Source: Anodontia alba
Lineage: Eukaryota > Mollusca > Bivalvia > Lucinida > Lucinidae
DNA: 64,000 nt
Direction: 5' to 3'
Assembly (NCBI GenBank): GCA_964016985.1
Contig: OZ024828.1
Coordinates: forward strand, 6,600,610-6,664,609
In this document: one piece after another, positions 3,953 through 60,425 of the stretch
Layout: each line of letters starts with the position of its first letter
Position numbering within the stretch: position 1 is the stretch's first letter
Position numbers and translations under genes: made by a program
The notes under the pieces: generated by a model
What the model was told of the DNA's origin: nothing
What the model saw: the letters and a program-made list of their open reading frames with translations, nothing else
Databases searched by the model: none

Positions 3953-5203
3953 TCACTCATTGATTTCATAGTGTTTGTTAATGCGTATGTTGTGTCCCAC
4001 TCCTTCAAGGAATTCTGGAAGAGTTTTATTGCCGCTATTGTACTGCTCACAAAGAGTTCTTAGACGATGCTGCAAGCGTTCAAGTCCTTTTTTAACACGC
4101 CTTTTGGGAGGATTTCCAACAGCATCCTGTTGGATCACTGTCCTGACGGTAGCATTTTCTTTTTGGAACCACTGGATTAGTTTCCAAACTGATGGATGGT
4201 AGTGTCCAACAAGATTAAGAAATTTATTATTCCATCCTTCACACACATTATTTGTCCTTGGACTGTCGTTCAGTGTAGCCTCATGGACACTCCAGACTAC
4301 AGGTGGGTAGAGTGGTTGAACATGTCGCACACGAATAATATTGTTGTCACCTGGAAGTAACCTGAATGTACCACTAACATATGTTTTGTCGAAGTATGCC
4401 ACAAGGTCTGTAGCTTCAGCCGGAGCAATTGTCTTTAAATACTCTATTCCTTGTTGAACATCAGCATGTGGCAGAAAAGCTAATCCATCAAGCATGCCAC
4501 AAAACTGTCTGAAATCTTCATTGGACTTATAATGTTGAGCTAGTCCAAGGCTTTGAATCTTTCTCCAGGTACTTTGTGTTAAATGGTAGAAGCACCCCTT
4601 GCTGTTAACATCGCGACCAAACACACCTGCTACAGCACGCAGTACAGCTTCCTCAAAGTCTGTGATAATTGTCTGAACGTTCATGACTAATCCAATGGCT
4701 TCACATTTATCAACTATTGCCTGTAACAACTCATCATAGGCAGCGCGAGTTTTGTGTTGTAAGAGCGCATAAACACATGTCACAGACGTTTCTCCGGAAG
4801 GGACTCGAAGAACATAAAGTTGGGAGAATAGTTTAGGTGCCATGGCAAAGTTTCCGTCCATGAAAACAGTATCAGCTGCAGATAGTCGGCGTAGGTCAGC
4901 CTCTGTAGCAAAGGCTATAACTCGGGAATTGCTGTCAGGACCATTGTCATACAGAAGGAAGGGTTCTTGGTTGACACCGGCAGTTGTTGTCCATTCGTCT
5001 GGAATGACAAATTCTGACAGATTCTGTGGAACAGGAGGTGTACGACGCTGGTAACGTAAACTACGTTTCACGTTTTCCTCAGTTGGTAAGAATGATAGAA
5101 CCTCAGGCGGCATTTGGGAAACTGTTTGGGCAAAGATCTGGGATGGTTTGTCTAAGGAAGAAGCAGCTTGTATTAACAATTTACATATGTTAATTTCTAC
5201 CAA
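3953..5203 (-). CDS. MULE-type DDE transposase (main exon)
   Basis: A 416-codon open frame encodes a Mutator-like transposase core. Candidate catalytic residues are Asp116 (in FMDGNF), Asp182 (in IITDFEEAV) and Glu322 (in NNVCEGWNN), with a CxxH pair at Cys204 and His207 between the second Asp and the Glu, as in MULE/FLYWCH-associated transposases. The C-terminal part has a basic patch (PPKRRVKKGLERLQHR). The first 17 residues are doubtful. At 5152 on the minus strand there is a pyrimidine tract ending TTCCTTAG, a strong splice acceptor, so the true exon probably begins at 5151 and the frame upstream is intronic. An N-terminal zinc-finger exon, expected in the family, is not visible between 5203 and 5764. 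No internal stop or frameshift is seen. The protein would act in the nucleus on the ends at 2729 and 5764. Confidence 0.85.
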   Translation of the reverse strand: MVEINICKLLIQAASSLDKPSQIFAQTVSQMPPEVLSFLPTEENVKRSLRYQRRTPPVPQNLSEFVIPDEWTTTAGVNQEPFLLYDNGPDSNSRVIAFATEADLRRLSAADTVFMDGNFAMAPKLFSQLYVLRVPSGETSVTCVYALLQHKTRAAYDELLQAIVDKCEAIGLVMNVQTIITDFEEAVLRAVAGVFGRDVNSKGCFYHLTQSTWRKIQSLGLAQHYKSNEDFRQFCGMLDGLAFLPHADVQQGIEYLKTIAPAEATDLVAYFDKTYVSGTFRLLPGDNNIIRVRHVQPLYPPVVWSVHEATLNDSPRTNNVCEGWNNKFLNLVGHYHPSVWKLIQWFQKENATVRTVIQQDAVGNPPKRRVKKGLERLQHRLRTLCEQYNSGNKTLPEFLEGVGHNIRINKHYEINE

Positions 5204-11965: not shown

Positions 11966-14270
11966 AGCTCACCTGAGCTCTGCTCAGGATGAGCTATTGA
12001 GATCACTTTTCGTTCGTCGTCCGTCCGTCCGTGCGTCCGTCCGTCCGTCCGTTAACATTTTCAAACGACTTCTCCTCTGAAACCGCTGAGCCAATTTTGC
12101 TCAAATTTCATATGAAGCCTCCTTAAGGTGGGGGAACGAAAAATTGCTAAAATGGTCGCGGTCCGTTGACCAAGATGGCCGCCACGCCCATATATGGTAA
12201 AAACCTTAAAAAATCTTCTTCTCCAGGACCAAGAATGCCTTGGGGCTGAACCTTTGCAGGAATCATCGGGGACGGGAGGTCTACCAAAATTGCTAATAGA
12301 ATTGTCGTACGTTGACGTTTGACCTTTTTACGGCAAGGTCAAGTTTGCTTCCCTATGCATTTGTATGGGAAAAACCTTTAAAAATCTTCTTCTCCAAAAC
12401 CGAGCATGCCTTATGGCTGAATCTTTGCATAAATCTTTGGGAACAGGAGAGCTACCAAAATTGCTAAAATAATGGTCGTACATTGACATTTGACCTTTTT
12501 ACGGTAAGGTCAATTTTGCTTCCCTATGCATTTGTATGGGAAAAATGTTCAGAATTTCAAACAACTTCTCCTCTGGAGCCTCTGGGCCAATTTTGCTAAA
12601 ATTTCATATGGCGCCTCCTTAGGGTGGGGGAACGAAATTGCTAAAATGGTCGCGGTCCGTTGACCAAGATGGCCGCCACGCCCATATATGGTAAAAACCT
12701 TTAAAAATCTTCTCCTTCAGAACCGAGAATGCCTTTGGGCTGAACCTTTGCAGGAATCATCGGGGACGGGAGGTCTACCAACATTGCTAAAAGAATTGTC
12801 GTACGTTGAGTTGACGTTTGACCTTTTTACGGCAAGGTCAAGTTTGCTTCCCTGTGCATTTGTATGGGAAAAACCTTTAAAAATTTTCTTCTCCAAAACC
12901 GAGCATGCCTTATGGCTGAATCTTTGCATATATCTTCGGGAACAAGAGGACTACCAAAATTGCTAAAATAATGGTCGAACATTGACATTTGATTTTTTTA
13001 CGTAAGGTCAATTTTGCTTCCTTATGGATTTGTATGGGAAAAATGTTCAGAATTTCAAACAACTTCTCCTCTGGAGCCTCTGGGCCAATTGTGTTCAAAT
13101 TTCATATGGAGCCTCCTTAGGTAGGGGGAACAAAAGATTGCTAAAATGGTCACGGTTCGTTGACCAAGATGGGCGCCATGCCCATATATGGTAAAAAACT
13201 TTATAAATCTTCTTCTCTAGAACCGAGGATGCTTTGGGGCTGAATATTTGCATAAATCATCGGGAACAGGGGATCTACCAAAGTTGCTAAAATAATAGTC
13301 ATACATTGACATTTGACCTTTTTACGGCAAAGTCAAGTTGCTTCCTTATGCATTTGCATGGGAAAAAACATTTAAAAATCTTATTCTCCAAAACCGAGGA
13401 TGGCTTATGGCTGAATCTTTGCATATATCATCTGGAACGGGCGGTCTATCAAAGTTGCTCAAATAATTGTCATACATTGACATTTAACCTTTTTACGGCG
13501 AGGTCAAGTTTGCTTCTGTATGCATTTGTATGGGCCCCATACATTTGTACGGAAAAAATGTTGACAATTTCAAATGGCTTTTCCTCTGAAGCCTCCGGGC
13601 CAGTGTTGCTCAAATTTCATGCGGAGCCTCCGTGGGCAGGAGAATGAAAGATTGCTAAAATGGGTATGGTCCATTGATCAAAATGGCTGCCATGCCCATA
13701 TATGGTAAAAACCTTTAAAAATCTTCTTCTCCATAACCAAATAAGCCCTGGGTCCTAATCTTTGCACAAATTACGGGGGATAGGAGATCTACCAAAATTG
13801 CTCAAATGATGGTTCTTTGTTGACATTTGACCTTTTTGCCTCCAAGGTCAAATTTGCTTCCCTATTTGTGTGGGCTATATACATGAAAGTATCGAAGTGA
13901 CTTGTAGATCAACAGTAGTTAAAATTGTTCTGATTGGAAATCTAAGATGGCCATCATCTGGTTTATATTTATAATATGTCCCTGCCACTGTGCTGTTTAC
14001 ATGTATAAAATCACGATTCTTTAGAAACCACTTAGCCAATTTCCACCAAATTTCACATTGATCCTTCTGTTGAAATGTGATTGATAGTTTATTCAAATGA
14101 TCATGCTCCATTGACTGTCAGGCCCATATATTCTTCAAAACTAAGAACTGCTCAAATGATGATATTTTCATTAGTTGCGATGATAGGACTGGAAAAATGT
14201 TGCATAACATCTGCATGTCTGCAGTGGCTTTGTCACTCAGGTGAGCGAATCGTGGCCCGTGGGCCTCTTG
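11966..14270 (+). mobile_element. Pearl-like Helentron-derived non-autonomous element, copy 1
   Basis: It starts AGCTCACCTGAGCTCTGCTC after a T run, carries a (GTCC)n-type microsatellite at 12019-12053, and ends CAGGTGAGCGAATCGTGGCC then GGGCCTCTTG followed by a T run. The body is a higher-order tandem repeat. A 500-bp unit containing GTTGACCAAGATGGCCGCCA recurs near 12150, 12650, 13150 and 13660. Within each, TAAAAATCTTCTTCTCC sub-units repeat about every 170 bp. This layout (5' arm, tetranucleotide microsatellite, tandem core, 3' arm) is that of bivalve pearl elements, now linked to Helentrons. There is no intact coding sequence. Confidence 0.75.
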
Positions 14271-16185: not shown

Positions 16186-16495
16186 GCCGGCTTCGGTGGC
16201 TCATTTGGATGCGCTGTCCGACTAGAGACCAGGTGGTCGCGGGTTCAACCCTCGCCGAGGTCGTCAACATTCTTTCGTGGAGATTGATCATGAAATATTT
16301 TCTACGGTCATTCTCTCCCTTCCGCAGATTCAAGAAGGGCAGTTGTCAGTTTCTGGCGGAAGAATGTTCACAATACTGGTTAACCGCTTAGGGGACTAAG
16401 CCTGCCCAGTAAACGTGTGGTTATGTAAACTGACCGCGCTCGACATGACCCCACTGGGTTGACTGGGCCGTAAAACCACAACACAAACAAAGAAA
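16186..16495 (+). mobile_element. tRNA-derived SINE with target-site duplication
   Basis: The 5' part is tRNA-like, with a pol III A box (TGGCTCATTTGG) and B box (GGGTTCAACCC). It is followed by a non-tRNA body (ATTCTTTCGTGGAGATTGAT; GACATGACCCCACTGGGTTG) and an ACAAACAAAGAAA tail. The 12-bp CAGAGTGCTATG flanks it at 16174-16185 and 16496-16507. A second copy, inverted, is at 38022-38321. It has no coding capacity; mobilisation would need a LINE partner. Confidence 0.88.
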
Positions 16496-27625: not shown

Positions 27626-27811
27626 TGTAATGTTTGTGGGCTATGAGACACTCAGAACAATGTATGATTATACAACTTTAATATGTGATTACTAAACAGC
27701 TACACTACATAACAGACACAACTCTAAGACTGACCCAGTATCAAAGCAACAGAAAAACTATACTTCCAATTATAAGGTATTATAGACTTGCTGAAAGTAC
27801 ATTTCTTTACA
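27626..27811 (-). repeat. 3' LTR of the gypsy element
   Basis: 186 bp, nearly identical to 32367-32552; the only difference seen is C versus T in GACTGACCCAGTATC. It is preceded on the minus strand by the polypurine tract. Confidence 0.92.
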
Positions 27812-28392
27812 TCTCCCTCTTTAAAGTTTTTATTTTATCAATTTACTTATTTATTATTTTTAAATTAAGAGTAAAATTTTCTATCCGCTTTACTGCAAGT
27901 CTATGGAAGTTTTTGTCTCACAATGTTTTTCTTGTTTGTTTCAAGCTAATTTCTGTTTATCTAAGATAACAAAATTTTATCAGGAACATATGTCTGGGCT
28001 ATTTTCAAAAAACAATTAACAATGAAAATGGTCCTTCTTTATCATTAAGAGGAAATTAATGGTCAGATTGCTTACACTTGTTCAAGACAAAAAACAATAA
28101 AACATATAATTACCAGGGTGTGCTGACTTTTCTTACAAATGAAAGTTGCAAATAATTGGATATAATCAGGAAACAGCATTTTTCCCTATTCTCTGATATA
28201 TCAGTAATAAAGGTATCTTATGGCTCAAAAGCAAAATGCAATATTGCTCCAAAGCAAAAATGTACCTTATGTCACTTTAAAAAGTTTTCCTGATAATTCT
28301 TTGTTTTACCGTAATATATGTAAAGATTACGTATCTTTACCACTTTTAATTACATATGGGGATTATTGTGCCCCATTAATCCAAACTTAGAA

Positions 28393-30891
28393 TCACTTCA
28401 TCACATAATCATCAAAACGCATTGGCATTTTCACTTGTCTGCCACTTGAAGTGTATTTCTTTGAATCACTCTGCGAAATATTTGATGAGGGTTGTTCAAC
28501 AAAGTTTGAACTGTTCTTTGATGAAATGTTCTCCTGACAGTCGTAGAAGATTTCAGGCTCTTCACTGCGGTTTTCCGATGTTTTTAACAGATGTCTCCTG
28601 TTTCTTCTAAGTTTCTGTCCTTTTTCAGTTTGTATTACATAAGATCTAGGTGTGTCGGCTCTCTGTTCGACTGTTCCTGGTTCCCATTTATTTTCATTTC
28701 TCACACGAATCTGATCACCTGGATTAAGTTGGGGTAGGGATTTTGCTCCACGATCATAATAATACTTTTGAATATGCTGCCTTTCATTCAGCGCATTCTG
28801 CACATTTGCTCCATCATGGTACTGAGGTTTAAGAAGTGAATCATTCACAGGTAATTGTGTTCGAGTCCTTCTTCCCATTAACAGTTGTGAAGGAGACAAA
28901 TTTATGCCTTCTATGGGAGTATTTCTGTATTCCAGTATTGCTAAATACGGATCAGAGTTTGATTTCTTTGCCTTTTTCAGTACGTTTTTACAAATTTGAA
29001 CATATTTTTCAATAAATCCCATACTTTGTGAATACCTTGGTGAGGATGTAACATGTTCAAATCCATAATTTTCAGCAAATTCTTTAAATTGTTCACTTGC
29101 AAAAGCAGGTCCATTGTCACTTTTCAGGATTTTCGGTATTCCCCATCTTGAGAAATTTTCTTTCAAGACATTTATTACGCTTTTGCTTGAACTACTGGCT
29201 ATTTTCTTTACCTCAAAGAATTTAGAGTAATAACATGCCAGTACTATGTAAGTGTCTTTGTCAAGTTCAAATAAGTCTGTTGCACATATTTCCCATGGCT
29301 TACTTGGTATTTCATGAGGAATCATGGGTTCCTTAGCCTGTGCACTTTTAAATTCATTACATATTGCACATTGGCTTACTATGTCTTTTATCTGTGCAGC
29401 CATTCCTTGCCAATAGAACACATCTTTGGCTCTGCTTATGCATTTATTAATTCCAAGGTGGCTTTTCTGGTGAATCTGTTCAATTACATTTTTCTGCATG
29501 GATTTAGGAATAATTACTTTTTCACCTTTCAACATCAGTCCTTCAAAATACGAAATCTCATCTCTGAAATTCCAATAATGAGTGATGCGCGGATTTATTT
29601 CCTTTTTGTTTTCAGGCCATCCCCTTAGAACTGTGTCTTTCAGAATATTTAATTCCATGTCTTTAAGCGTTTCCTCTTTCAATTCTGAAAGTTTTCTCTG
29701 CGAGCAAGGAAGATTTTCTATAGAGAAAATACTATAGTCGGAATCACAGATAGGACTTTCATCCTGCGAAACACATGCTCTACTCAAAGTGTCTGCTATC
29801 CATAACTCACGACCGCTTTTATAATGTACTCGTAAGTCATATTTCTGCACTTTCAACATCATTCTTTGTATTCTAGGTGGCATTTGAGCTAAAGGCTTTT
29901 TGAATATGCTCTCTAAAGGTCTATGATCAGTTTCAACATGTATAGGACCCTTGGCATATATGTATTCATGAAACTTTGTTGCTCCAAATACTATTGCTGC
30001 CATCTCTTTCTCTATCTGAGCATAGTTCTGTTCAGATTTGTTCAATGCCCGGGATGCATATGCCACTGGATGTCCATTCTGAAGAATACATGCACCTAGT
30101 GCATCCTTTGAACTATCTACAGATAACAATACATCTTCATTTTCATCATAAAACTGTAATACAGGTGCTGTTGTGATAGCCTTTTTTAGTTCATTGAAGC
30201 TTTTCTTTTGGGAGTCTTCCCAATGCCATTCAACATTTTTCTCCAAAAGCTGTCTCAGAGGCTGATTTATACCTGATAAGTTTGAAATAAACTTTCCAAG
30301 GTAATTAACTGTACCCATGAACCTTTGTAGCTCTTTTTTATTCCTTGGTTCTGGTATTTCCATTATTGCTCTTACTTTTTCAGAACTTGGCTTCAACCCT
30401 TCAGTACCAAATGTATGTCCAACATAAGCTACTTCTGACAGCCCTATTTTACATTTGCTTTTGTTCAGTTTCATATTGGCTTGTTTTATTCTGTCTAAAA
30501 CAGCACAAAGACGCTCATTATGCTCTTTTTTATCTTTTCCCCAGATCAATATGTCGTCGGCAATAACTTCACAACCTTCAATATTTTCCAGTATTTGTGA
30601 AACTGCTCTTTGGAAGACTTCACTCGAGCTTTTTATTCCGAACGGCAATCTAAGATATTTATATCTTCCAAATGGGGAATTAAATGTAGTGTACGTCTGA
30701 GAATCTCTAGTGATTTTTATTTGCCAATATCCATTTGATGCATCTAAAACACTGTATATTTTAGCATTTTTCACCTTTGCTGCGACTTCTTCAACAGTTT
30801 TCATTGGAAAGTGTTCTCTTAGGATACTCTTATTTAGCTCCCTTGGGTCTAAACATAGTCGTACATCTTTATTTGTTTTTTTCCACCACAA
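28393..30891 (-). CDS. pol: Gypsy Pol: reverse transcriptase, RNase H, integrase
   Basis: 832 codons, no internal stop. The RT has the first catalytic Asp in VLDASNGYWQ (about residue 50) and the IADD box (110-113). RNase H has Asp259 (SVDSS), an Glu near 294-296 and Asp322 (ETDHRP), followed by the WIADTLSRA motif. Integrase has an HHCC zinc-binding set (His474, His478, Cys508, Cys511) and a DDE core at Asp539, Asp592 and Glu628, the last two separated by 35 residues as expected. The tail is basic and polar, with no chromodomain recognised. The N-terminal fingers of RT are encoded in the preceding frame, so the annotated Met is not a real start. The two frames overlap by 23 bases and this frame is +1 relative to gag. 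All catalytic residues look intact. Together these enzymes would copy the element RNA and insert the cDNA. Confidence 0.93.
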   Translation of the reverse strand: MWWKKTNKDVRLCLDPRELNKSILREHFPMKTVEEVAAKVKNAKIYSVLDASNGYWQIKITRDSQTYTTFNSPFGRYKYLRLPFGIKSSSEVFQRAVSQILENIEGCEVIADDILIWGKDKKEHNERLCAVLDRIKQANMKLNKSKCKIGLSEVAYVGHTFGTEGLKPSSEKVRAIMEIPEPRNKKELQRFMGTVNYLGKFISNLSGINQPLRQLLEKNVEWHWEDSQKKSFNELKKAITTAPVLQFYDENEDVLLSVDSSKDALGACILQNGHPVAYASRALNKSEQNYAQIEKEMAAIVFGATKFHEYIYAKGPIHVETDHRPLESIFKKPLAQMPPRIQRMMLKVQKYDLRVHYKSGRELWIADTLSRACVSQDESPICDSDYSIFSIENLPCSQRKLSELKEETLKDMELNILKDTVLRGWPENKKEINPRITHYWNFRDEISYFEGLMLKGEKVIIPKSMQKNVIEQIHQKSHLGINKCISRAKDVFYWQGMAAQIKDIVSQCAICNEFKSAQAKEPMIPHEIPSKPWEICATDLFELDKDTYIVLACYYSKFFEVKKIASSSSKSVINVLKENFSRWGIPKILKSDNGPAFASEQFKEFAENYGFEHVTSSPRYSQSMGFIEKYVQICKNVLKKAKKSNSDPYLAILEYRNTPIEGINLSPSQLLMGRRTRTQLPVNDSLLKPQYHDGANVQNALNERQHIQKYYYDRGAKSLPQLNPGDQIRVRNENKWEPGTVEQRADTPRSYVIQTEKGQKLRRNRRHLLKTSENRSEEPEIFYDCQENISSKNSSNFVEQPSSNISQSDSKKYTSSGRQVKMPMRFDDYVMK

Positions 30892-32296
30892 CTAATGAGT
30901 TCACCCATTCAGTAGGTTCCGTTACTTTTTGAATGACCCTCATTTTTTCTAGTCGATCAAGCTCATTTTTCACCTTATTTCTCAATGCATACGGGATCTT
31001 CCTTGGTGGGTTTATTACCGTTTTTGCATCTTTTTCCAAACGAATTCTATATTCAGTTGGTAAGCATCCAAGGCCTTCAAAAACGTCTCTGTAATTTTCA
31101 AGAATTTCTTCACTTGATGTATTTTCACAGTTTAGACTAAATAGTCTGGAAATTAAGTTTAACTCCAAACATGCTTTTAATCCAAATAAGGGTGTTGATT
31201 TGTCCTTCACTATCTCAAATTCTATAGGCACATACTTGTTTTTCGTTGATACAAGCAATGTAACTTTCCCCACAGTGTTCAATCTGTGACCCGAATATGA
31301 TACAAGTCTTGACTTTGATGGTTTCAGTGGCCTGTCACTAATCTGATTGTAAATATGCAATGGCAATACATTGCACTGTGCACCAGTATCAAGTTTCATA
31401 CTGACAGTTTTTTTACATATTTTAACATTTACTTTCCAGTCACCAGCATTCTGATCAGTTTCCACAGAATCTAAGAAAATGTCTGTGTCACTGTCATTTT
31501 CTTGAAGCTCATGCATCTTTTTACTTCTACATTGTCTCATAAAGTGATTCTTCTTTTTACAGTTCATGCAGATTTTACCAAAAGCTGGGCACTTACGTGG
31601 CTCATGCTTATATCCACATTTTCCACATTTCTGTTTTTGTTGGGAAGCAGCTGGTCTATTTTCAGTGTTTTTCATCAGTTTATTTTTGTCAGATTTCTTT
31701 CTAACAAAGTCAATGTTACTTCCTGAGGCTCCTGCCGAGGCTGTTTGTAACACTTTTAATTGTTGTGATGATGCTTCTGCAGCTCTGCATATGTCAACAG
31801 CTTTCTGCAAGGTTAGATCTGTTTCCCGAAGTAATCTGCTTCTTACAGTATCCATAATTACACCACATACAATTCTGTCTTTGATGAGAGAATCTGATAA
31901 GTCTCCAAATTCACATGATTTGGACAAAATTCTTAATTCTGTCACGTATGAGTCAATAGATTCTCCTTCTTTCTGGTTTCTTGTATTGAACTGGTGCCTC
32001 TCATATGTCACATTACACTTCGGAGTGCAGTATTTTTCAAACTTTGACAACACTTTGCTCATTTTCTTATCATCCCCTTCATTATCACCTTCTTCATCCC
32101 ATCGAAATGTATTGAAAATTTCAATAGCATCAGGTCCAATGACATGAAGTAGAGTAGCACATTTTATATTCTCGGTAGAATTGCTAATTCCTGCCGCTGT
32201 AATATAAATCTCAAATTGTTGTTTAAATTTCCTGAAATTGTCCTTCAAGTTTCCAGTTAACAACAATTTTTCTGGAGGATGCAAATTTTTTGCCAT
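30869..32296 (-). CDS. gag-pro: Gypsy Gag-protease plus start of RT
   Basis: 475 codons starting MAKNLHPPEK, 71 bases inside the 5' LTR. The capsid-like part is followed by two zinc knuckles, C-x2-C-x3-H-x4-C (Cys214 onward) and C-x2-C-x4-H-x4-C (Cys233 onward), that would bind RNA. An aspartic protease follows, with the active site LDTGA at Asp293. The last 75 residues are the start of RT and end in VVVEKNK. The frame then stops because of a seven-A run (plus-strand T run 30876-30882); the downstream RT is in the +1 frame. Because the break is inside RT and not at the gag/pol border, a one-base insertion or an assembly error is more likely than programmed shifting. Steamer itself has one continuous frame. 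Confidence 0.92.
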   Translation of the reverse strand: MAKNLHPPEKLLLTGNLKDNFRKFKQQFEIYITAAGISNSTENIKCATLLHVIGPDAIEIFNTFRWDEEGDNEGDDKKMSKVLSKFEKYCTPKCNVTYERHQFNTRNQKEGESIDSYVTELRILSKSCEFGDLSDSLIKDRIVCGVIMDTVRSRLLRETDLTLQKAVDICRAAEASSQQLKVLQTASAGASGSNIDFVRKKSDKNKLMKNTENRPAASQQKQKCGKCGYKHEPRKCPAFGKICMNCKKKNHFMRQCRSKKMHELQENDSDTDIFLDSVETDQNAGDWKVNVKICKKTVSMKLDTGAQCNVLPLHIYNQISDRPLKPSKSRLVSYSGHRLNTVGKVTLLVSTKNKYVPIEFEIVKDKSTPLFGLKACLELNLISRLFSLNCENTSSEEILENYRDVFEGLGCLPTEYRIRLEKDAKTVINPPRKIPYALRNKVKNELDRLEKMRVIQKVTEPTEWVNSLVVVEKNK

Positions 32297-32366
32297 TTTT
32301 TACGGTAATCAGTTAATCAGAATGTTAATTAATAATATTAATTAATCCAGTTGACTTCTGACACCA
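32297..32366 (-). promoter_or_regulatory. Primer-binding site and leader of the gypsy element
   Basis: On the minus strand TGGTGTCAGAAGT begins at 32365, one base inside the LTR end. Complementarity to the tRNA-Leu 3' terminus covers 13 bases. The leader to the gag ATG is about 70 bp. Confidence 0.8.
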
Positions 32367-32552
32367 TGTAATGTTTGTGGGCTATGAGACACTCAGAACA
32401 ATGTATGATTATACAACTTTAATATGTGATTACTAAACAGCTACACTACATAACAGACACAACTCTAAGACTGACTCAGTATCAAAGCAACAGAAAAACT
32501 ATACTTCCAATTATAAGGTATTATAGACTTGCTGAAAGTACATTTCTTTACA
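32367..32552 (-). repeat. 5' LTR of the gypsy element
   Basis: 186 bp, TG to CA, followed on the plus strand by the target duplication TGGGC at 32553-32557. It should hold the promoter; no obvious TATA box was assigned. Confidence 0.92.
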
Positions 32553-32557
32553 TGGGC

Positions 32558-43568: not shown

Positions 43569-46203
43569 GTGAGGTATTGTGATCACTCACCGTCCGTCGT
43601 CGTCGTCGTCGTCGTCCGTCTGTCCGTCCGTCCGTCCGTCCGTTCACAATCTTTAAACAACATCTCCTCCTAAACCACTGATTGGATTTTGACCAAATTT
43701 CACAGGAATGATCCTTGATTGATCCTCTTTCAAAGTGGTTCAAATGGTTCCGGTCCATTGCATATCTAGGTCACAGGAGCTAAAAATAGATTTTTTAACT
43801 AAAAACTAAAAAAAATCTTCTCGTCAGAAACCACTGGACCGATTTCAATAAAATTTTGCAGAAATGTTCCTTTGGTGATCCTCTACCAAGATTGTTCAAG
43901 CCATTTGGATTCGTCAAAAAACATGGCCGCCAGGGGGCGGGGCTTATTTTCCCTATATATCTATATAGAAAACTTTAAAAATCTTCTTGTCAGAAACCAC
44001 TGGACCAATTTCAATATAATTTTGCAGAAATGTTCCTTTGGTGATCCTGTTGCAAGATTGTTCAAGCCATTTGGATTCGTCAAAAGACATGGCCGCCAGG
44101 GGGCGGGGCTTATTTTCCCTATATATCTATATAGAAAACTTTAAAAATCTTCTTGTCCGAAACCACTGAACCGATTTCCATATAATTTTGCAAAAATGTT
44201 CCTTTGGTGATCCTGTTTCAAGATTGTTCAAGCCATTTGGATTCGTCAAAAAACATGGACGCCAGGGGGCGGAGCTTATTTTCCCTATATAATCTATATA
44301 GAAAACTTTAAAAATCTTCTTGTCCGAAACCACTGGACCGATTTCCATATGATTTTGCAGAAATGTTCCTTTGGTTATCCTGTTGCAAGATTGTTCAAGC
44401 CATTTGGATTTGTCAAAAAAACATGGCCGCCAGGGGGGGGGGGGGGGGGGGGGCGGGGCTTATTTTCCTTATATATCTATATACAAAACTTTAAAAATCT
44501 TCTTGTCATAAAGCACTGGACGGATTTCAATATAATTTTACAGTAATGTTTCTTCGATGATCCTCTACCAAGATTGTTCAAGCCGCCATGATTCGTTAAA
44601 AAACATGGCCGCTAGGGGGCGGGGTTTATTTTTCATATATATCTGTATAGAAAACTTTAAAAATCTTCATGTCATAAACGACTGGACCGATTTCAATATA
44701 ACTTGGCAGAAATGTTTCCTTAGTGACCCTCTATCAAGATTGTTCAAGCCGTCATGATTTGTCAAAAATCATGGCCTCTAGAGGGTGCGGGGCTTATTTT
44801 CCATATATATCTATCTTGTCGTCAGAAACCACAGGACTGATTTCAATATAACTTCACAGAAATGTTTCCTTGGTGACCCTTTACCAAGATTGTTCAAACC
44901 GTTATGATTTGTCAAAAAACATGGCCACTAGGGGGCGGGGCTTATTTTCCTATATATCTATATAGAAAATTTTAATAGTCTTTTCAGAAACCACTTGACC
45001 GATTTCAATGTAACATTGCAGGAATGTTTCTTATGTAACCCTCTATCAAGATTGTTCAAGCCGTCATGATTCGTCAAAAAACATGGCCGCCAGGAGTCGG
45101 GGCTTATTTTCCTTATATATCTATAGAAAACTTTAAAACTCTTCTTGTCAGAAACTACTGAACTGATTTCATTATAACTTTGCAGAAATGTTTCCTTGGT
45201 GACCCTCTACTAAGATTGTTCAAGTAATCATGATTCGTCAAAAAACATGGCTGCCGGGGGCAGGGCTTATTTTCCCTATACATCTATATATAAAACTTTA
45301 AAAATCTTCTTTTCAGAAACCAATGGACCGATTTCAATACAACTTGGCAGGAATGTTTCTTTGGTGACCCTCTACAAAGATTGTTCAAGCCGTCATGATT
45401 CATCAAAAAACATAGCCGCTAGGGGGCGGGGCTTATTTTCCCTATATATCTATATAGAAAACTTTAAAAATCTTCTCGTAAGAAACAGTTGGACCGAGTT
45501 CAATGTAACTTGGCAGGAATGTTGCTTTGGTGACCTTCTACCAAGATTGTTCAAGCCTTCATGATATGTCAAAAACCATGGCCCCCAGTGGGGCGGGGCT
45601 TATTTTTCGTCTATATCTGCATAGAAAATTTTAAAATTCTTATTGTCACATACCCCATGACCGATTTCAATATTACTTGGCTGGAATGTTGCTTTGGTGA
45701 ACCTCTATCAAGATTGTACAAGCAGTCATGATTCGTCAAAAAACATGGCTGCCATGGGGTGGGGCTTATTTTCCCTATATATCTAAATAGGAAACTTTAA
45801 AAATCTTCTTGTCAGAAACCACTGAACAGATTTCAATATAACTTGGCAGGAATGTTCCTTTGGTGACCCTCTACCAAGTTTGTTCAAGCTTTCATGATTC
45901 GTCAAAAAACATGGCCGTTAGGGCATAGGGCTTTATAGCTATATAAAACTTTTTAAACCACTGGACCAATTTCAATATAACTTGGCAGAAATGTTCCTTT
46001 GGTGACCTTCCTTTAAGATTCAGTTCAAGTCGTCAAGATTTGTAAAAAAACATGGCCGGGGGTGTGGTGGAGGGGGTGGGGGTGGTTAGTGCTATAAAGT
46101 TTATACAAAAATCCTAGAGCAGTGAACTTGGCTGAAACTTCAACAGTAAATATGCAAATCTGTTTGGTCAGGTGAGCGATATAGGACCATCATGGTCCTC
46201 TTG
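43544..46203 (+). mobile_element. Pearl-like Helentron-derived element, copy 2
   Basis: AGCTCACCTGAGCCGAAGGC start, (GTC)n/(GTCC)n microsatellite at about 43593-43643, end CAGGTGAGCGATATAGGACC then GGTCCTCTTG and a T run. The body is about 14 tandem units of 160-170 bp, each with CACTGGACCGATTTCAATAT, AAGATTGTTCAAGCC and AAAACATGGCCGCCAGGGGG. The units diverge toward the right end. One G run of about 20 (44429-44453) marks an expanded GCCAGGGGG. Non-coding: short open frames simply follow the unit. Confidence 0.78.
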
Positions 46204-53023: not shown

Positions 53024-53400
53024 AGGTAAGAGAAAAGTCCAGAGAGTGCCACAATCACAAACCACAGCCCTTCTCAGACACCAAGAGGAAGAGGAAACCG
53101 ACAAATCTAAACAAGCACAAATCGAACAAACGTACGAAAAAAACTAAGATTAGATCTCTCTTCCCCAAGCGAGGTAAATCGCAAGGCTAAAAGGACTGAA
53201 AAACACAAGAACGTACAAGATGACAAAAAAATCGCCTCGTAGACAAAAATCAGTGCACAAAGCAACAAAGAGTAAGACTAACACCGGGACCACCGCTTTA
53301 GAACGGTCAGTAGAGTAAACCACCGGGGGGTTAAAGCACTTTTACAGCTAGCCAACACCCTGGGTCCCGATGCTACTCTTAATACAGAAATACCTTTTTG
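53024..53400 (+). repeat. X-Y dispersed repeat, X part (left of the TRIM)
   Basis: Starts GGTAAGAGAAAAGTCC after an A run and ends ACTCTTAATACAGAAATAC. It matches 57245-57655 (same orientation) and 55500-55895 (inverted). The Y part resumes at 54294 after the TRIM insertion. Confidence 0.75.
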
Positions 53401-53442
53401 AGATTCGCGGATGTAACAGGTGAAAAAATTCTAATCACCAAT

Positions 53443-53516
53443 GCCACGACCGGGGATCGAACCCGGGCCGCCTGTGTGACAGGCGAACACTCTACCGCGT
53501 CACTATAAAAGCCGGC
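53443..53516 (-). other. tRNA-Asp-like module in TRIM LTR 1
   Basis: 74 bp. On the minus strand the T arm is a perfect 5-bp stem around TTCGATC, and the anticodon-loop region reads CTGTCAC, as in tRNA-Asp(GTC), but the anticodon stem is mispaired and CGCCTG/CAGGCG-type pairing competes. Not a functional tRNA. This LTR lacks the second module. Confidence 0.6.
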
Positions 53517-53719
53517 TTGTACTGCATGGCAGTACAAGTGTATCATATACCTACCACTACTACATATTCCCCCTCCATTTTAAGATTCGTCCGCGAATCT
53601 CAATTTGAGCAACCACTCAATACTACGCCACCAAGCCTCTTGGGCCACCAAGCCCATCAAATGGGGTTATTTACGTTGGGCGCCAGATGTAACAGGTGAA
53701 AAAAAATCTAATCACCAAT

Positions 53720-53773
53720 GCCGCGTCCGGGGATCGAACCCGGGCCGTCTGCCTGTCAGGCCAACACTCTAAC
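53720..53773 (-). other. Truncated tRNA-like module in TRIM LTR 2
   Basis: Keeps the T arm (CCCGGGTTCGATCCCCGG) and a GGCCTGACAGGC hairpin, but lacks the D arm and acceptor 5' side. Confidence 0.55.
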
Positions 53774-53810
53774 ACTCTGTTACTACAGGTGAAAAATTCT
53801 AATCACCTAT

Positions 53811-53884
53811 GCCGCGTCCGGGGATCGAACCCGGGCCGCCTGCGTGACAGGCGAACACTCTACCGCGTCGCTATAAAAGCCGGC
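53811..53884 (-). other. tRNA-Asp-like module in TRIM LTR 2
   Basis: 74 bp: GCCGGCT acceptor side, an A-box-like TAGCGACGCGG, CCTGTCACGC, B box GGTTCGATCCC. Acceptor pairing is 5 of 7. Just upstream, CTTGTACTGC and GCAGTACAAG form a perfect 10-bp hairpin. Confidence 0.6.
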
Positions 53885-54087
53885 TTGTACTGCATGGCAG
53901 TACAAGTGTATCATATACCTGTCACTACTACATATTCCCCCTCCATTTTAAGATTCGTCCGCGAATCTCAATTTGAGCAACCACTCAATACTACGCCACC
54001 AAGCCTCTTGGGCCACCAAGCCCATCAAATGGGGTTATTTACGTTGGGCGCCAGATGTAACAGGTGAAAAAAATCTAATCACCAATG

Positions 54088-54141
54088 CCGCGTCCGGGGA
54101 TCGAACCCGGGCCGTCTGCCTGTCAGGCCAGCACTCTAACA
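54088..54141 (-). other. Truncated tRNA-like module in TRIM LTR 3
   Basis: Same structure as 53720-53773, one base different in the GGCCTGACAGG flank. Confidence 0.55.
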
Positions 54142-54171
54142 CTCTACAGGTGAAAAATTCTAATCACCCAT

Positions 54172-54245
54172 GCCGCGTCCGGGGATCGAACCCGGGCCGC
54201 CTGCGTGACAGGCGAACACTCTACCGCGTCGCTATAAAAGCCGGC
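54172..54245 (-). other. tRNA-Asp-like module in TRIM LTR 3
   Basis: Identical in layout to 53811-53884. The adjoining hairpin here is CTTGTACTGC with GCGGTACAAG, where an A-to-G change leaves a wobble pair, so the stem is kept. Confidence 0.6.
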
Positions 54246-54293
54246 TTGTACCGCAAGGCAGTACAAGTGCATCATATACCTGTCACTACTACA

Positions 54294-54540
54294 TACATAA
54301 AAATTGGTTTCGCATAAAGGCTCCCAACTCAGTCAATGCATCAAAGCGAAAACAAAGTAAATGAAAACCAATAGTTGAACCACGGCGGGCCAAGCCAAAG
54401 ACATCGTCAAGCCCCAACCCACTCGTTAAAGTTTTACGAAGAGGCCGTCATTGAGTCTTGAGGCCCGAACCGCCGTCGTACAATTAAAGAGTAAAGCTTA
54501 ACCATCAACAATGATTGGGTAGTTAAAGTCATTAAGATTT
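54294..54540 (+). repeat. X-Y dispersed repeat, Y part (right of the TRIM)
   Basis: ATAAAAATTGGTTTCGCATA to CATCAACAATGATTGGGT, matching 57655-57945. On the minus strand the far end still spells the NPIIVDG stop of the frame at 57914-58303. Confidence 0.75.
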
Positions 54541-55454: not shown

Positions 55455-55895
55455 ATTAGACAGATGTGCATTGACTGAGTTGGGAGCCTTTATGCGAACC
55501 GAATTTTTATGTATTTCTGTATTAAGAGTAGCATCGGAACCCAGGGTGAAGTTAGCTAGCTGTTAAAGTGCTTTAAACCCCCCCGGTGGTTTGCTCTACC
55601 GACCGTTCTAAGGCGGTGGTCCCGGTGTTAGTCTTACTCTTTGTTGCTTTGTGGTTTATTCTACGAGGCGATTTGTTGTTTGTCTTTCCGTGTGTTATTT
55701 TGTTCTTGTGTTTTTCAGTCCTTTTAGTATTGCGATTACCTCGCTTGGGGAAGAGAGAGCTAATCTTAGTGCTTTTCGTACGTTTGTTCGGTTTGTGCTT
55801 GTTAAGATTTGTCGGTTTCCTCCTCCTCTTGGGGTCTGGGAAGGGCCGCGTTTTGTGATTGTGGCACTCCCTGGACTTTTCTCTTACCTTTTTTG
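55455..55895 (-). repeat. X repeat, inverted copy
   Basis: TGAGTTGGGAGCCTTTATGC to CTTTTCTCTTACCTTTT, the reverse complement of 57241-57682 and of 53024-53400 plus the start of Y. On the minus strand it directly follows the recombinase C-terminus, and the junction AAAAAAGGTAAGAG looks like a splice donor. Confidence 0.75.
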
Positions 55896-57240: not shown

Positions 57241-57945
57241 AAAAGGTAAGAGAAAAGTCCAGGGAGTGCCACACTCACAAAACGCAGCCCTTCCCAGACC
57301 CCAAGAGGAAGAGAAAACCGACAAATCCAAACAAGCACAAATCGAACAAACGTTTGAAAAGCACTAAGATTAGCTCTCTCTTCCCCAAGCGAGGTAATCG
57401 CAATACTAAAAGGACTGAAAAACACAAGAACAAAATGACACACGGAAAGACATACAACAAATCGCCTCGTAGAATAAACCACAAAGCAAGAAAGAGTAAG
57501 ACTAACACCGGGACCACCGCCTTAGAACGGCCAGTAGAGTAAACCACCGTGGGGGGCGGGGGGGGGGGGATGGGGGTGGCGTTGAAGCACTTTTACAGCT
57601 AGCTAACTTCACCACGGGTCCCGATGCTACTCTTAATACAGAAACACATAAAAATTCGGTTCGCATAAAGGCTCCCAACTAAGTCAATGCATCAAAGCGA
57701 AAACATAAAAATCAAATTAATCACTATAATAAACAAAGACGAGTACTCATGGCTAATTCTACTGTATGCCAGAGTAAATGAAAACCAATAGTTGAACCAC
57801 GGCGGGCCAAGCCAAAGACATCGTCAAGCCCCAACCCACTCGTTAAAGTTTTACGAAGAGGCCGTCATTGAGTCTGAGGCCCGAACCGCCGTCGTGCAAT
57901 TAAAGAGTAAAGCTTAGCCATCAACAATGATTGGGTTAACAACTA
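57241..57945 (+). repeat. X-Y dispersed repeat, complete copy inside the DIRS-like element
   Basis: From AAAAGGTAAGAGAAAAGTCC to CATCAACAATGATTGGGTT, including a G-rich tract at 57548-57575. It interrupts the DIRS frame between ALLMNW (about 58240) and YAFPP (about 57225). Its other side extends into the frame at 57914-58230. Confidence 0.7.
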
Positions 57946-58321: not shown

Positions 58322-58783
58322 TCAAGTTGCAAACAAACCCACATTGGGAAAATTGAGCATTTGAAAAATGGAATTCGCCACTGATTGATCCAAACTCCAT
58401 TCTGTTTTGAGAGGTCTGTCCAATCTCGAAAAGCATTCTGCTAATATATTGAATTTACCTGGAATATGACGAATTCTGAGAACAATATCGTGTTTCAGGC
58501 ACCAATGGAGAATTTCCCATACCTCTACGCATAGGTTGGGGGAATATGTTCCTCCTTGTTTGTTGATATAGGAGACCACTGCTATATTGTCGGTAGAGAT
58601 CATGACACAAGAGTGGTGTATGAATTGTATGGTTTTCTTCAGTGCAAAACGAATGGCCATTATTTCCAGAATATTGATTTGGAGCAGGGACTGGTCTTCC
58701 GTCCAGCGACCATGAAAGGATAGTCCCATCGGTTCGAGATGAGCTCCCCATCCATAATGACTGGCATCCGTAAAAGGGATATA
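58322..58783 (-). pseudogene. RNase H domain of the DIRS-like element
   Basis: Read from 58783: PFTDASHYGWGAHLEPMGLS, then NILEIMAIRFAL, STDNIAVVSYINKQGG, HIPGKFNILAECFSRLDRP and NVGLFAT. The first catalytic Asp (TDAS), the Glu (ILEIMA) and the second Asp (STDN) are all present. The family B MITE at 58784 cuts it off from the RT just before PFTDAS. The domain itself is open for about 150 codons and stops with TGA near 58320. Confidence 0.85.
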
Positions 58784-59117
58784 CAGTCGAACCTCGTTAT
58801 CTCGAACTCGCTTATTTCGAATAACCGCTTATCTCGAAGTGAAAATCTGGTCCCTGTTTTAACATGAAACTATGACAACAGGTAACAAAATAATGTGGAA
58901 AAGAGGAGAAATTGCTCCTAAGGAGCAATTTCTCCTCTTTTCCACATTATTTTATATATATATTTCTAACTTAGGAGTCAAATTACATATTCATTTGTTA
59001 AATGTGGTTGTTCAATTTATTGTCTTCCTCACTCTCTCAACTCTGATACGTCGAAGTACGGATATCTCGAAGTGTTTCAGTGAGTCCCTTGGAATTCGAG
59101 ATAACGAGAGTCGACTG
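58784..59117. mobile_element. Family B pogo/Tigger-like MITE, copy 5 (inside the DIRS pol)
   Basis: TA (58782-58783), CAGTCGAACCTCGTTATCTC start, AACGAGAGTCGACTG end, TA (59118-59119). GGAGAAATTGCTCCTAAGGA hairpin core. It separates RT from RNase H. Confidence 0.85.
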
Positions 59118-59119
59118 TA

Positions 59120-60425
59120 TCTGGATCTGGAGCGAATCACCATTTCAAATGAAATCGAATCATACTGTTGATGGGCACTTGATGATATAGGGGTAGAATA
59201 TGAGGTCTCCAGACAGAAAAAAAGATACATTTGAAGCGGTCTTAAATGAAGTCTGCCTTGGAGAACGAAGTCTGCTACTGCACTGAGTTTGCCCAAAAGA
59301 GAAAGGAAAGTTCGTGCCGAAACTTGAGCTGAGTTAGAAGTAGTCTGACAGTCAGAAGTAGGGATTCGATGCGATCTGCTGGTACCTTGACTATGTTGCT
59401 TTTGTGTGAGAAATTCCATTCATATGAAGGTGAATTGCTGAGTTGGTATCAAATCTGACTTCTTTAGACTTTGAATGAATTCTAGACTTTGAACTGTTTG
59501 AAGGCAATATATTGTGTGAATATGGGTCTGGTGCTAATTAGATCTCTTATAAGCCAATCGTCTAGGTACGGAAATAGTGAGATGGCACGTAGACGCAAAT
59601 GTGCCGCTATTAAGTCCATCGGTTTGGTGAAAATCCACGGACAGGGATATTCCGAAAGGTAAGGCCGTGAATTGGAAGACCTGATTTTCAAACATGAAAC
59701 GAAGGTACTCCCTGGATCGACGATGAATCGGAACATGTAGATAAGCATCTGTCAGATCTATGGAGACAGCCCAGTCGTTGACTAGTATCGATTGTCGTAC
59801 TGACTTGACTGTTTTCATCTTGAATGGTTGTTTCTTTATGTACTGATTCAATAGAGAAAGATCTATTACAGGACGTAACTTTCCGTTCTTTTTCGGGACA
59901 AGAAATAGTCGGAAATAAAAACCGGGAGTTCCCGGATTTTGTACCCTTTCAACTTCCTGTTTCTGGAGAAGTTCCGTTATCTCTTCTCGTAATAATGGGG
60001 AGGTAAATTGACTCAGACTTATCGGAACTGTTGAAAGAGGGGGAGTTGAATTGATTGGTATCCTTGAAACCGTCTCGTGCAATAGAGAGGGCCCATTTGT
60101 TTTGTGTTAATTCTCCCCATTGTTCCACAAAGTGGGCCAATCTTCCTCCCACTGGAATATCTGAGCGTGGTAAGATAGGCAGTGGAAAAGGGTGACTTTC
60201 AGAACTTTGTGGAAGACGGGGCATGTTTAGAGGAGGGGAACTGCTTTGTGTTACTACTCCTCTTAGAAAAGTCCTTCCTTGTACTGGACGTAAAGGACTG
60301 AGATTGAGTTTTAGACCTGTACGGTTGGTTCTGTTTAGGTCTATAAAATTTGGTCGGCTGTCTAGGTTTCTTAAATGATCCTGTAGCCGAATAAGATGAT
60401 TTTTGTTGTTGTTGGATATTAACAT
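59120..60425 (-). pseudogene. Reverse transcriptase region of the DIRS-like element
   Basis: Three successive frames. Pre-RT (59949-60425): PVGGRLAHFVEQWGELTQNK, typical of DIRS proteins. RT fingers and palm (59534-60082): VPKKNGKLRPVIDLSLLNQY, first catalytic Asp in VSIDLTDAYLHVPI, FTALPFGISLS. After a shift near 59640: PWIFTKPMDLIAAHLR and the YLDD box (FPYLDDWLI, about 59565). After another shift: ARTFLSLLGKLSAVADFVL and GRLHLRPLQMYL (thumb/connection, about 59220-59340). The residues for activity are visible but no frame runs through. This would have copied the element RNA. Confidence 0.85.

Follow-up and report, generated by a model that had tools for sequence, protein, structure and literature searches.

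A Helenus-type TRIM with three LTRs and tRNA-like modules within them in the lucinid bivalve Anodontia alba

TRIMs whose LTRs contain tRNA-derived sequence have been described under the name Helenus (Kojima 2024, PMC10886601). The animal families were reported there to make 4-bp target duplications, and the bivalve ones, 51 families from five orders of Pteriomorphia, prime with tRNA-Lys among others; the similarity of their primer-binding site (PBS) points to Gypsy, and transcription by pol III was called unvalidated in the same paper. A literature search for Helenus and TRIMp3 found no description beyond this publication, a 2026 meeting report aside, and the words Heterodonta, Venerida and Mercenaria are absent from its main text (Table S1 apart).

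Four other systems share some of these features. The plant TRIM Cassandra (PMC7215508) likewise has a small-RNA promoter in its LTR and typically forms arrays of about three LTRs, but the promoter belongs to 5S rRNA, where the element described here has a tRNA-like module. In the nemertean TRIM Ajax (PMC10886601), small-RNA-derived sequence is found in an animal LTR as well, although it is 5S-derived and the target duplications are 5 bp long. The bivalve biv-TRIM (Satovic 2019, PMC6934838) forms tandems of the type TDRx_I(x-1) and has a polypurine tract (PPT), GGGGAGA, that resembles the PPT of a second family found in this work; as characterized in that source, it differs in its repeats of 202–218 bp, its internal domain of 77–80 bp, a TGATCCCAAAGGAC segment and the lack of a clear PBS. 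The present element, with its 153-bp LTR and a 123-bp spacer in which, by reading, TGATCCCAAAGGAC is absent, does not belong to biv-TRIM. PbTRIM of an ant (PMC3532108) is a further animal TRIM with a PBS, a PPT and 4-bp duplications, but its PBS is of the tRNA-Leu type, and no tRNA module in the LTR is mentioned in the sections of that paper covered here. Three-LTR tandems are a known habit of TRIMs.

The element under study lies in a window of 64,000 nt (C8:6600610-6664609, the whole stretch of DNA that was analysed). It is a TRIM, with direct terminal repeats, a short non-coding internal domain, a PBS, a PPT and dispersed duplications, and it is a new family of the Helenus type, i.e., of a class already known, to which it was matched by its features. 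The original prediction, which knew of no described bivalve case, had regarded a tRNA-based animal counterpart of Cassandra as a parallel invention; such elements were, in fact, already published as Helenus, bivalves included (PMC10886601). The likeness extends to the tRNA-like LTR sequence with box A and box B kept, the PBS, the PPT and the 4-bp duplications, and also to the tRNA-Lys primer of some bivalve families, the Gypsy-type PBS and the tandem arrays known from a zebrafish family (PMC10886601). The host, in contrast, is a member of the Lucinidae (Imparidentia), whereas the mollusc Helenus families named in the part of PMC10886601 that was covered come from Pteriomorphia, so that, as far as this source reports, tRNA-bearing TRIMs are extended to another branch of the bivalves. 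Further differences from Helenus as presented there are the occurrence of tRNA-Asp-like and tRNA-Gln-like modules in a similar LTR frame, and a composite with a piece of pol.

Anatomy of the window element and its target site

The element is on the minus strand and reads, in its own sense, LTR 1 (the 5′ LTR, 238 bp, 54056–54293), spacer 1 (123 bp, 53933–54055), LTR 2 (the middle one, 245 bp, 53688–53932), spacer 2 (123 bp, 53565–53687) and LTR 3 (the 3′ LTR, 153 bp, 53412–53564); the predicted set of three TG...CA repeats and two spacers was exact to the base. All three LTRs start with TGTAGTAGTG and end with CACCTGTTACA. The two spacers, which make up the internal domain and whose sequence is dispersed in the genome, are identical, whereas LTR 1 and LTR 2 differ. 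A PBS at one end and a PPT at the other, also predicted, are present in both spacers. Between the LTR end and the PBS, TGGCGCCCAACGT, stands TC, so that the site begins 2 nt past LTR 1 in spacer 1 (54041–54053) and 2 nt past LTR 2 in spacer 2 (53673–53685); we take it to be of the tRNA-Lys(CTT) type. Directly before each next LTR stands GGAGGGGGAATA, and the 10-nt PPT (GGAGGGGGAA at 53935–53944 in spacer 1; 53567–53576 in spacer 2) ends 2 nt short of it in both cases. A Pfam search found no match for a 123-aa frame that runs across the window repeats.

Each window LTR contains a 75-bp tRNA-Asp-like module, located with ARAGORN at lowered thresholds and with Rfam in LTR 1 (54171–54245) and LTR 2 (53810–53884), and with Rfam in LTR 3 (53442–53516), all on the minus strand. 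A second module, truncated at its 5′ end, follows in LTR 1 (54086–54145) and LTR 2 (53719–53783), while LTR 3 with its single module has the form that is usual in the genome, with an A-box-like motif at LTR position 60, a B-box-like motif at 102 and a run of six T (T6) at 137. Upstream of the module is the U3 hairpin (54245–54267 in LTR 1, 53884–53906 in LTR 2 and 53516–53538 in LTR 3). This conserved 10-bp hairpin, noted from the window alone, is real and is kept in other copies: of the 88 LTRs, 72 have the search anchor, and in these, 702 of 720 pair cells are standard.

The module as a working tRNA is unlikely, in agreement with the earlier view, because ARAGORN in its default run reported no tRNA in the window element and the Rfam scores are under the cut-offs, namely 18.6–19.1 bits for the tRNA model (gathering threshold 29) and 19.7–20.4 bits for mascRNA-menRNA, a tRNA-like family (gathering threshold 42.5). 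With lowered thresholds, ARAGORN gave Asp(GTC) among other, conflicting reads. At E values of up to 1, Rfam gave six matches, none of them to a 5S rRNA family. For genome annotation, the element suggests that pieces of LTRs may turn up in tRNA predictions for genomes like this one. Elsewhere in the window, a tRNA-Ser(AGA) at 16188–16265 was reported by ARAGORN with other settings and not in the default run.

The element was inserted into a repeat, two sister copies of which lie in the window, both without the element. Sequence comparison placed one of them at 57574–57705 on the plus strand, with the empty site near 57644, and the other, inverted, at 55467–55600 on the minus strand. Measured against these sister copies, the target duplication is 3 bp, TAC (left copy 53391–53393, right copy 54294–54296), or, counting the next base, 4 bp with one mismatch. 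Beyond the U5 end of LTR 3 there are 18 extra bp (53394–53411, minus strand), which must have come with the insertion, as they are absent from the empty sites; 14 of the 18 equal the spacer segment TTGAGATTCGCGGA in the opposite sense.

Copies across the genome and their target duplications

The assembly searched comprises 1.86 Gb in 317 contigs. One of them, C317 (18,475 bp), bears mitochondrial genes, and its nad5 is nearest, when named full-length proteins are compared, to those of Loripes lacteus and Pillucina pisidium (53% for either), two Lucinidae (order Lucinida, Imparidentia), so that the host is placed among the bivalves near this family. Six unnamed proteins ranked higher, as did a partial entry labelled Homarus americanus, similar over 59% of the query and probably mislabelled or a contaminant; for COX1, the best match, also unnamed, was at 76%. 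With the whole element as query, 57 matches came from the 40 candidates scored among 1974 of a first look, and with the spacer alone, 41 matches came from the 40 scored among 427, neither figure being a copy number; in both searches the relatives were spread over many chromosomes. Structures were then read in the window and in 39 regions from the whole-element search, with ten more from the spacer search. In the window and the 39 regions, copies usually take the form LTR(153)-spacer(123)-LTR(153), 429 bp in all, with one module per LTR, and the length of 153 bp is found in 60 of 88 LTRs. Pairwise identity has a mean of 0.934 among the 88 LTRs and of 0.951 for the 44 neighbouring pairs. A pattern search found the B-box-like motif in 79 and the A-region motif in 84 of the 88.

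Two modules per full LTR, as originally proposed, is correct for LTR 1 and LTR 2 of the window but not elsewhere, one module being usual in the genome. The junction between the doubled modules was found by genome search at the window locus only, in these two LTRs; two further matches cover 35–36 of the 63 junction bases, in the ordinary copy L060 and in the composite L061, and the 3′ LTR of L011 has a doubled module with another junction. A subfamily with two-module LTRs was rejected on these grounds. Three LTRs are present in L012, L014 and L019, each time within a single 4-bp duplication, and five at L009. In this five-LTR array, the U3 hairpin is almost exactly missing from one LTR (at 2705–2734). 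A tRNA-headed, SINE-like insertion lies inverted within the 5′ LTR of L011 (about 1560–1860), and its head (CCTCGGTGGCTCAGTTGG) also abuts L034.

Exact 4-bp duplications flank 19 of the 35 chains whose two ends are intact; shuffling of the right flanks, repeated 2000 times, gave a mean of 1.05 and a maximum of 7. Sixteen chains were without one in this first count. By eye, L013 (TTAT) and L017 (GTAA) have a 4-bp duplication if their LTRs are read from the true start, 6 nt further in, and the rearranged loci L011, L015, L020, L035 and L044, taken as whole units, have one exact 4-bp duplication in five of five cases (L035 and L044 stand for two of the missing chains each, and L011, L015 and L020 lie outside the 35). 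Chains that still have no exact duplication are those of the window (3 bp), L009 (two), L034, L038 and L042. L029, L036 and L047, which have no exact 4-bp duplication, and L032, which is matched over 7 bases, are located in TG repeats; L029, L032 and L047 have a right flank in common and may be one insertion copied along with a larger repeat. Among 12 further loci, four pass the scripted duplication test and L061 passes by eye. In L067, three of the four bases agree; the other loci are truncated, rearranged or without a match. LTR-spacer-LTR copies with 4-bp duplications are present at many loci, and the original call of a TRIM is right.

Abnormal copies and a candidate Gypsy helper

In L020, L044 and L061, a second TRIM family was observed, chimeric with the first (family A). 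It has much the same LTR frame with another tRNA-like module, which we take, with the anticodon read by eye, to be tRNA-Gln(TTG)-like. Its LTR starts with TGTCACCGGG (L044, L061), and at the boundary between polypurine tract and LTR start, GGAGGGGGAGAA is followed directly by TGTCACCGGG.

Some of the rearranged copies are inverted composites. In L015, L035 and L044, either outer side is a U5 end, and a single exact 4-bp duplication flanks the whole (TATG, GTTA and TACC, respectively). Two whole elements meet U3 to U3 in L035; in L044, the start of U3 of a family-A element abuts the PBS of a piece from the second family; and in L015, two R regions are joined at the palindrome AAGCCGGCTT, with U3 absent. 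The same join as in L015 is seen in L048. L067, found through the spacer search, likewise ends in U5 at either side, with the imperfect duplication given above. Because both outer ends are U5 and each of the three loci has one exact 4-bp duplication, the joins in L015, L035 and L044 most likely predate integration.

The positions of the joins may say where the RNA begins. Of the 83 module starts inspected in the loci available at that stage, 74 are preceded by the normal ACAA. Two joins in L015 and one each in L020 and L048, four in all, are located between AA and GCCGGC or in the middle of this palindrome, i.e., from LTR position 47 on, and in L061, which was added later, the join is at about 45–47, by eye. 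Joins at other places are those of L035 and L044 (LTR start), L067 (about 62 to 136, by eye), L064 (spacer position 35 into the module), and L011 and the window (within their doubled modules). As minus-strand DNA that ends at the 5′ end of the RNA would give joins at position 47, we infer from these few cases that the RNA may start at or near LTR position 47, which is 13 nt ahead of the A-box-like motif. Joins at this position could also be favoured by the palindrome as such, and few loci are involved.

Two loci bear on the primer. In L038, 15 nt (CCACGTTGGGCGCCA), presumably of the tRNA-Lys 3′-end type, lie just upstream of the 5′ LTR and reach two nt beyond the element's own PBS; this tail on the U3 side would fit a retained primer tRNA. 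L048 has a 13-nt copy of the PBS outside its left U5 end, and the next two bases would fit tRNA-Lys as well; they may be host flank, because ACTTACC is found on both sides of this insertion.

For the tandem and double-module forms, there is a slightly better than even chance that they arose by recombination between genomic copies after insertion and not during reverse transcription. This is one explanation published for TRIM tandems (PMC6934838), and it would accommodate spacers that are identical while LTR 1 and LTR 2 differ, as well as the separate, different module duplication that L011 has in its 3′ LTR only. On the other hand, L012, L014 and L019 are each enclosed by one 4-bp duplication, though either origin allows this, and the inverted composites with their single duplications point to a step before integration in those cases.

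The composite L061, flanked by TGTA on both sides, contains a piece of coding sequence. From the left it reads inverted U5-R of family A, second-family R-U5, TT, TGGCGCCCAATGTGGGGC, the inverted coding piece and inverted second-family PBS-U5-R-U3. The coding piece, of 121 residues, is presumably C-terminal Gypsy pol, to which we liken it by the motif GDRVLVR..G..GKHKL..RWE; Pfam gave no family for it, the one PDB match (E 0.15) is not useful, and there was no match among the 360 proteins compared. In the genome, the piece had 150 matches from the 150 scored among 548 candidates. Many of the matches listed belong to open frames that reach at least 1,400 codons, and four, besides L061 itself, are 88–90% identical.

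One of these four, at C7:34.91 Mb, has boundaries like those of the TRIM: upstream, it reads CACCTGCTTCA-TA-TGGCGCCCAACA where the TRIM has CACCTGTTACA-TC-TGGCGCCCAACGT, and downstream, GCAGGGGAGAA is followed by TGTCAGTGG where the TRIM has GGAGGGGGAATA followed by TGTAGTAGTG. TGGCGCCCAACA lies 2 nt past the presumed LTR end of this Gypsy and matches the PBS of the TRIM over 11 nt; its boundaries are presumed, the fetched stretches being non-overlapping. A PBS was absent from the first stretches and was found further upstream, and for two of the three stretches, the first and the second, there was no significant alignment with any part of the TRIM. Judged from a single composite and a single element, the family of this Gypsy would be the best candidate helper. 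The pol fragment in an integrated composite adds to the PBS likeness by which animal Helenus had been linked to Gypsy (PMC10886601).

The window itself contains a Gypsy-type element on the minus strand (27626–32553), with 187-bp LTRs that are 99.5% alike and best database matches, to unnamed proteins, that are 80–100% identical. It was rejected as the helper, with a PBS (TGGTGTCAGAAG) directly after the LTR and a GCCCA duplication, by eye.

Transcription and the copying cycle

Transcription of the TRIM by pol III is likely, though unproven, judging from the motifs in its LTR. Exactly six T follow the module in 69 of 88 LTRs, and neither AATAAA nor ATTAAA occurs in any of the 88. The T6 run is present in the 5′ LTR too, so that pol III would need to read through it. 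Conservation of the motifs alone proves little for pol III, because the copies are young and similar throughout. The alternative is a TRIM transcribed by pol II, with the tRNA-like module being a captured piece of a SINE that has ceased to drive transcription. In favour of this alternative are a TATATGA motif at LTR position 16, which lies 31 bp ahead of the start inferred at 47, the weak tRNA scores of the module and the T6 run of the 5′ LTR. Against it speak the absence of both hexamers from all 88 LTRs, the preservation of A- and B-box-like motifs in most copies (young and alike throughout as these are), and the second family (L020, L044, L061), in which a similar LTR frame has a tRNA-Gln-like module. 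Transcription by pol II is considered unlikely.

Two other readings have next to no probability. That the locus is a local satellite or tandem array without transposition, as the tandem order and the identical spacers in the window could suggest, is refuted by the dispersal over many chromosomes, the 4-bp duplications and the empty sites; the spacer is found well beyond this one tandem locus, and the original preference for a TRIM over a satellite holds. That it is a SINE moved by a LINE and not an LTR element, as the tRNA-like stretch and the short length could suggest, is just as firmly refuted by direct terminal repeats, a PBS 2 nt after the LTR, a PPT and fixed 4-bp duplications at the LTR ends.

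The whole is best explained, with high confidence, as a three-LTR copy of a non-coding Helenus-type TRIM whose LTR has captured a tRNA-like module and which would be copied in the following cycle. The RNA would start near LTR position 47, run through the spacer and end in the 3′ LTR, probably at its T6 run. The machinery of an autonomous Gypsy-type element would package this RNA in trans, and tRNA-Lys would prime the minus strand at the PBS, both steps being suggested by few cases. The PPT would then prime the plus strand, and integrase would insert the resulting DNA, with 4-bp duplications at the target. Recombination or template switching, as in other TRIMs, would account for the middle LTR and for the doubled modules.

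A more specific reading, which we hold tentatively and at somewhat less than even odds, is that the genome keeps errors of reverse transcription (the two-U5 composites, the joins at 47, the primer end and the composite with helper pol) of a TRIM promoted by pol III. If true, the start site, primer and helper of such a TRIM could be read from genomic sequence, which is not shown for animals in PMC10886601, as far as that source was covered. The resulting predictions of start site, primer and helper could settle whether elements of this kind are transcribed by pol III. The integrated abnormal cDNAs are the stronger sub-finding; they hint at the mode of copying and at the machinery that mobilises the TRIM.

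Other mobile elements and repeats were observed in the window. A broken reverse transcriptase lies on the minus strand at 58325–60082, with the Pfam domains RVT_1 (59537–60082) and RVT_3 (58325–58729), and is DIRS-like by eye only. A frame with a MULE transposase domain is located at 3956–5203 on the minus strand, and there are two tandem arrays, one with a 166-bp period at 43811–45917 and one with a 499-bp period at 12059–13865.
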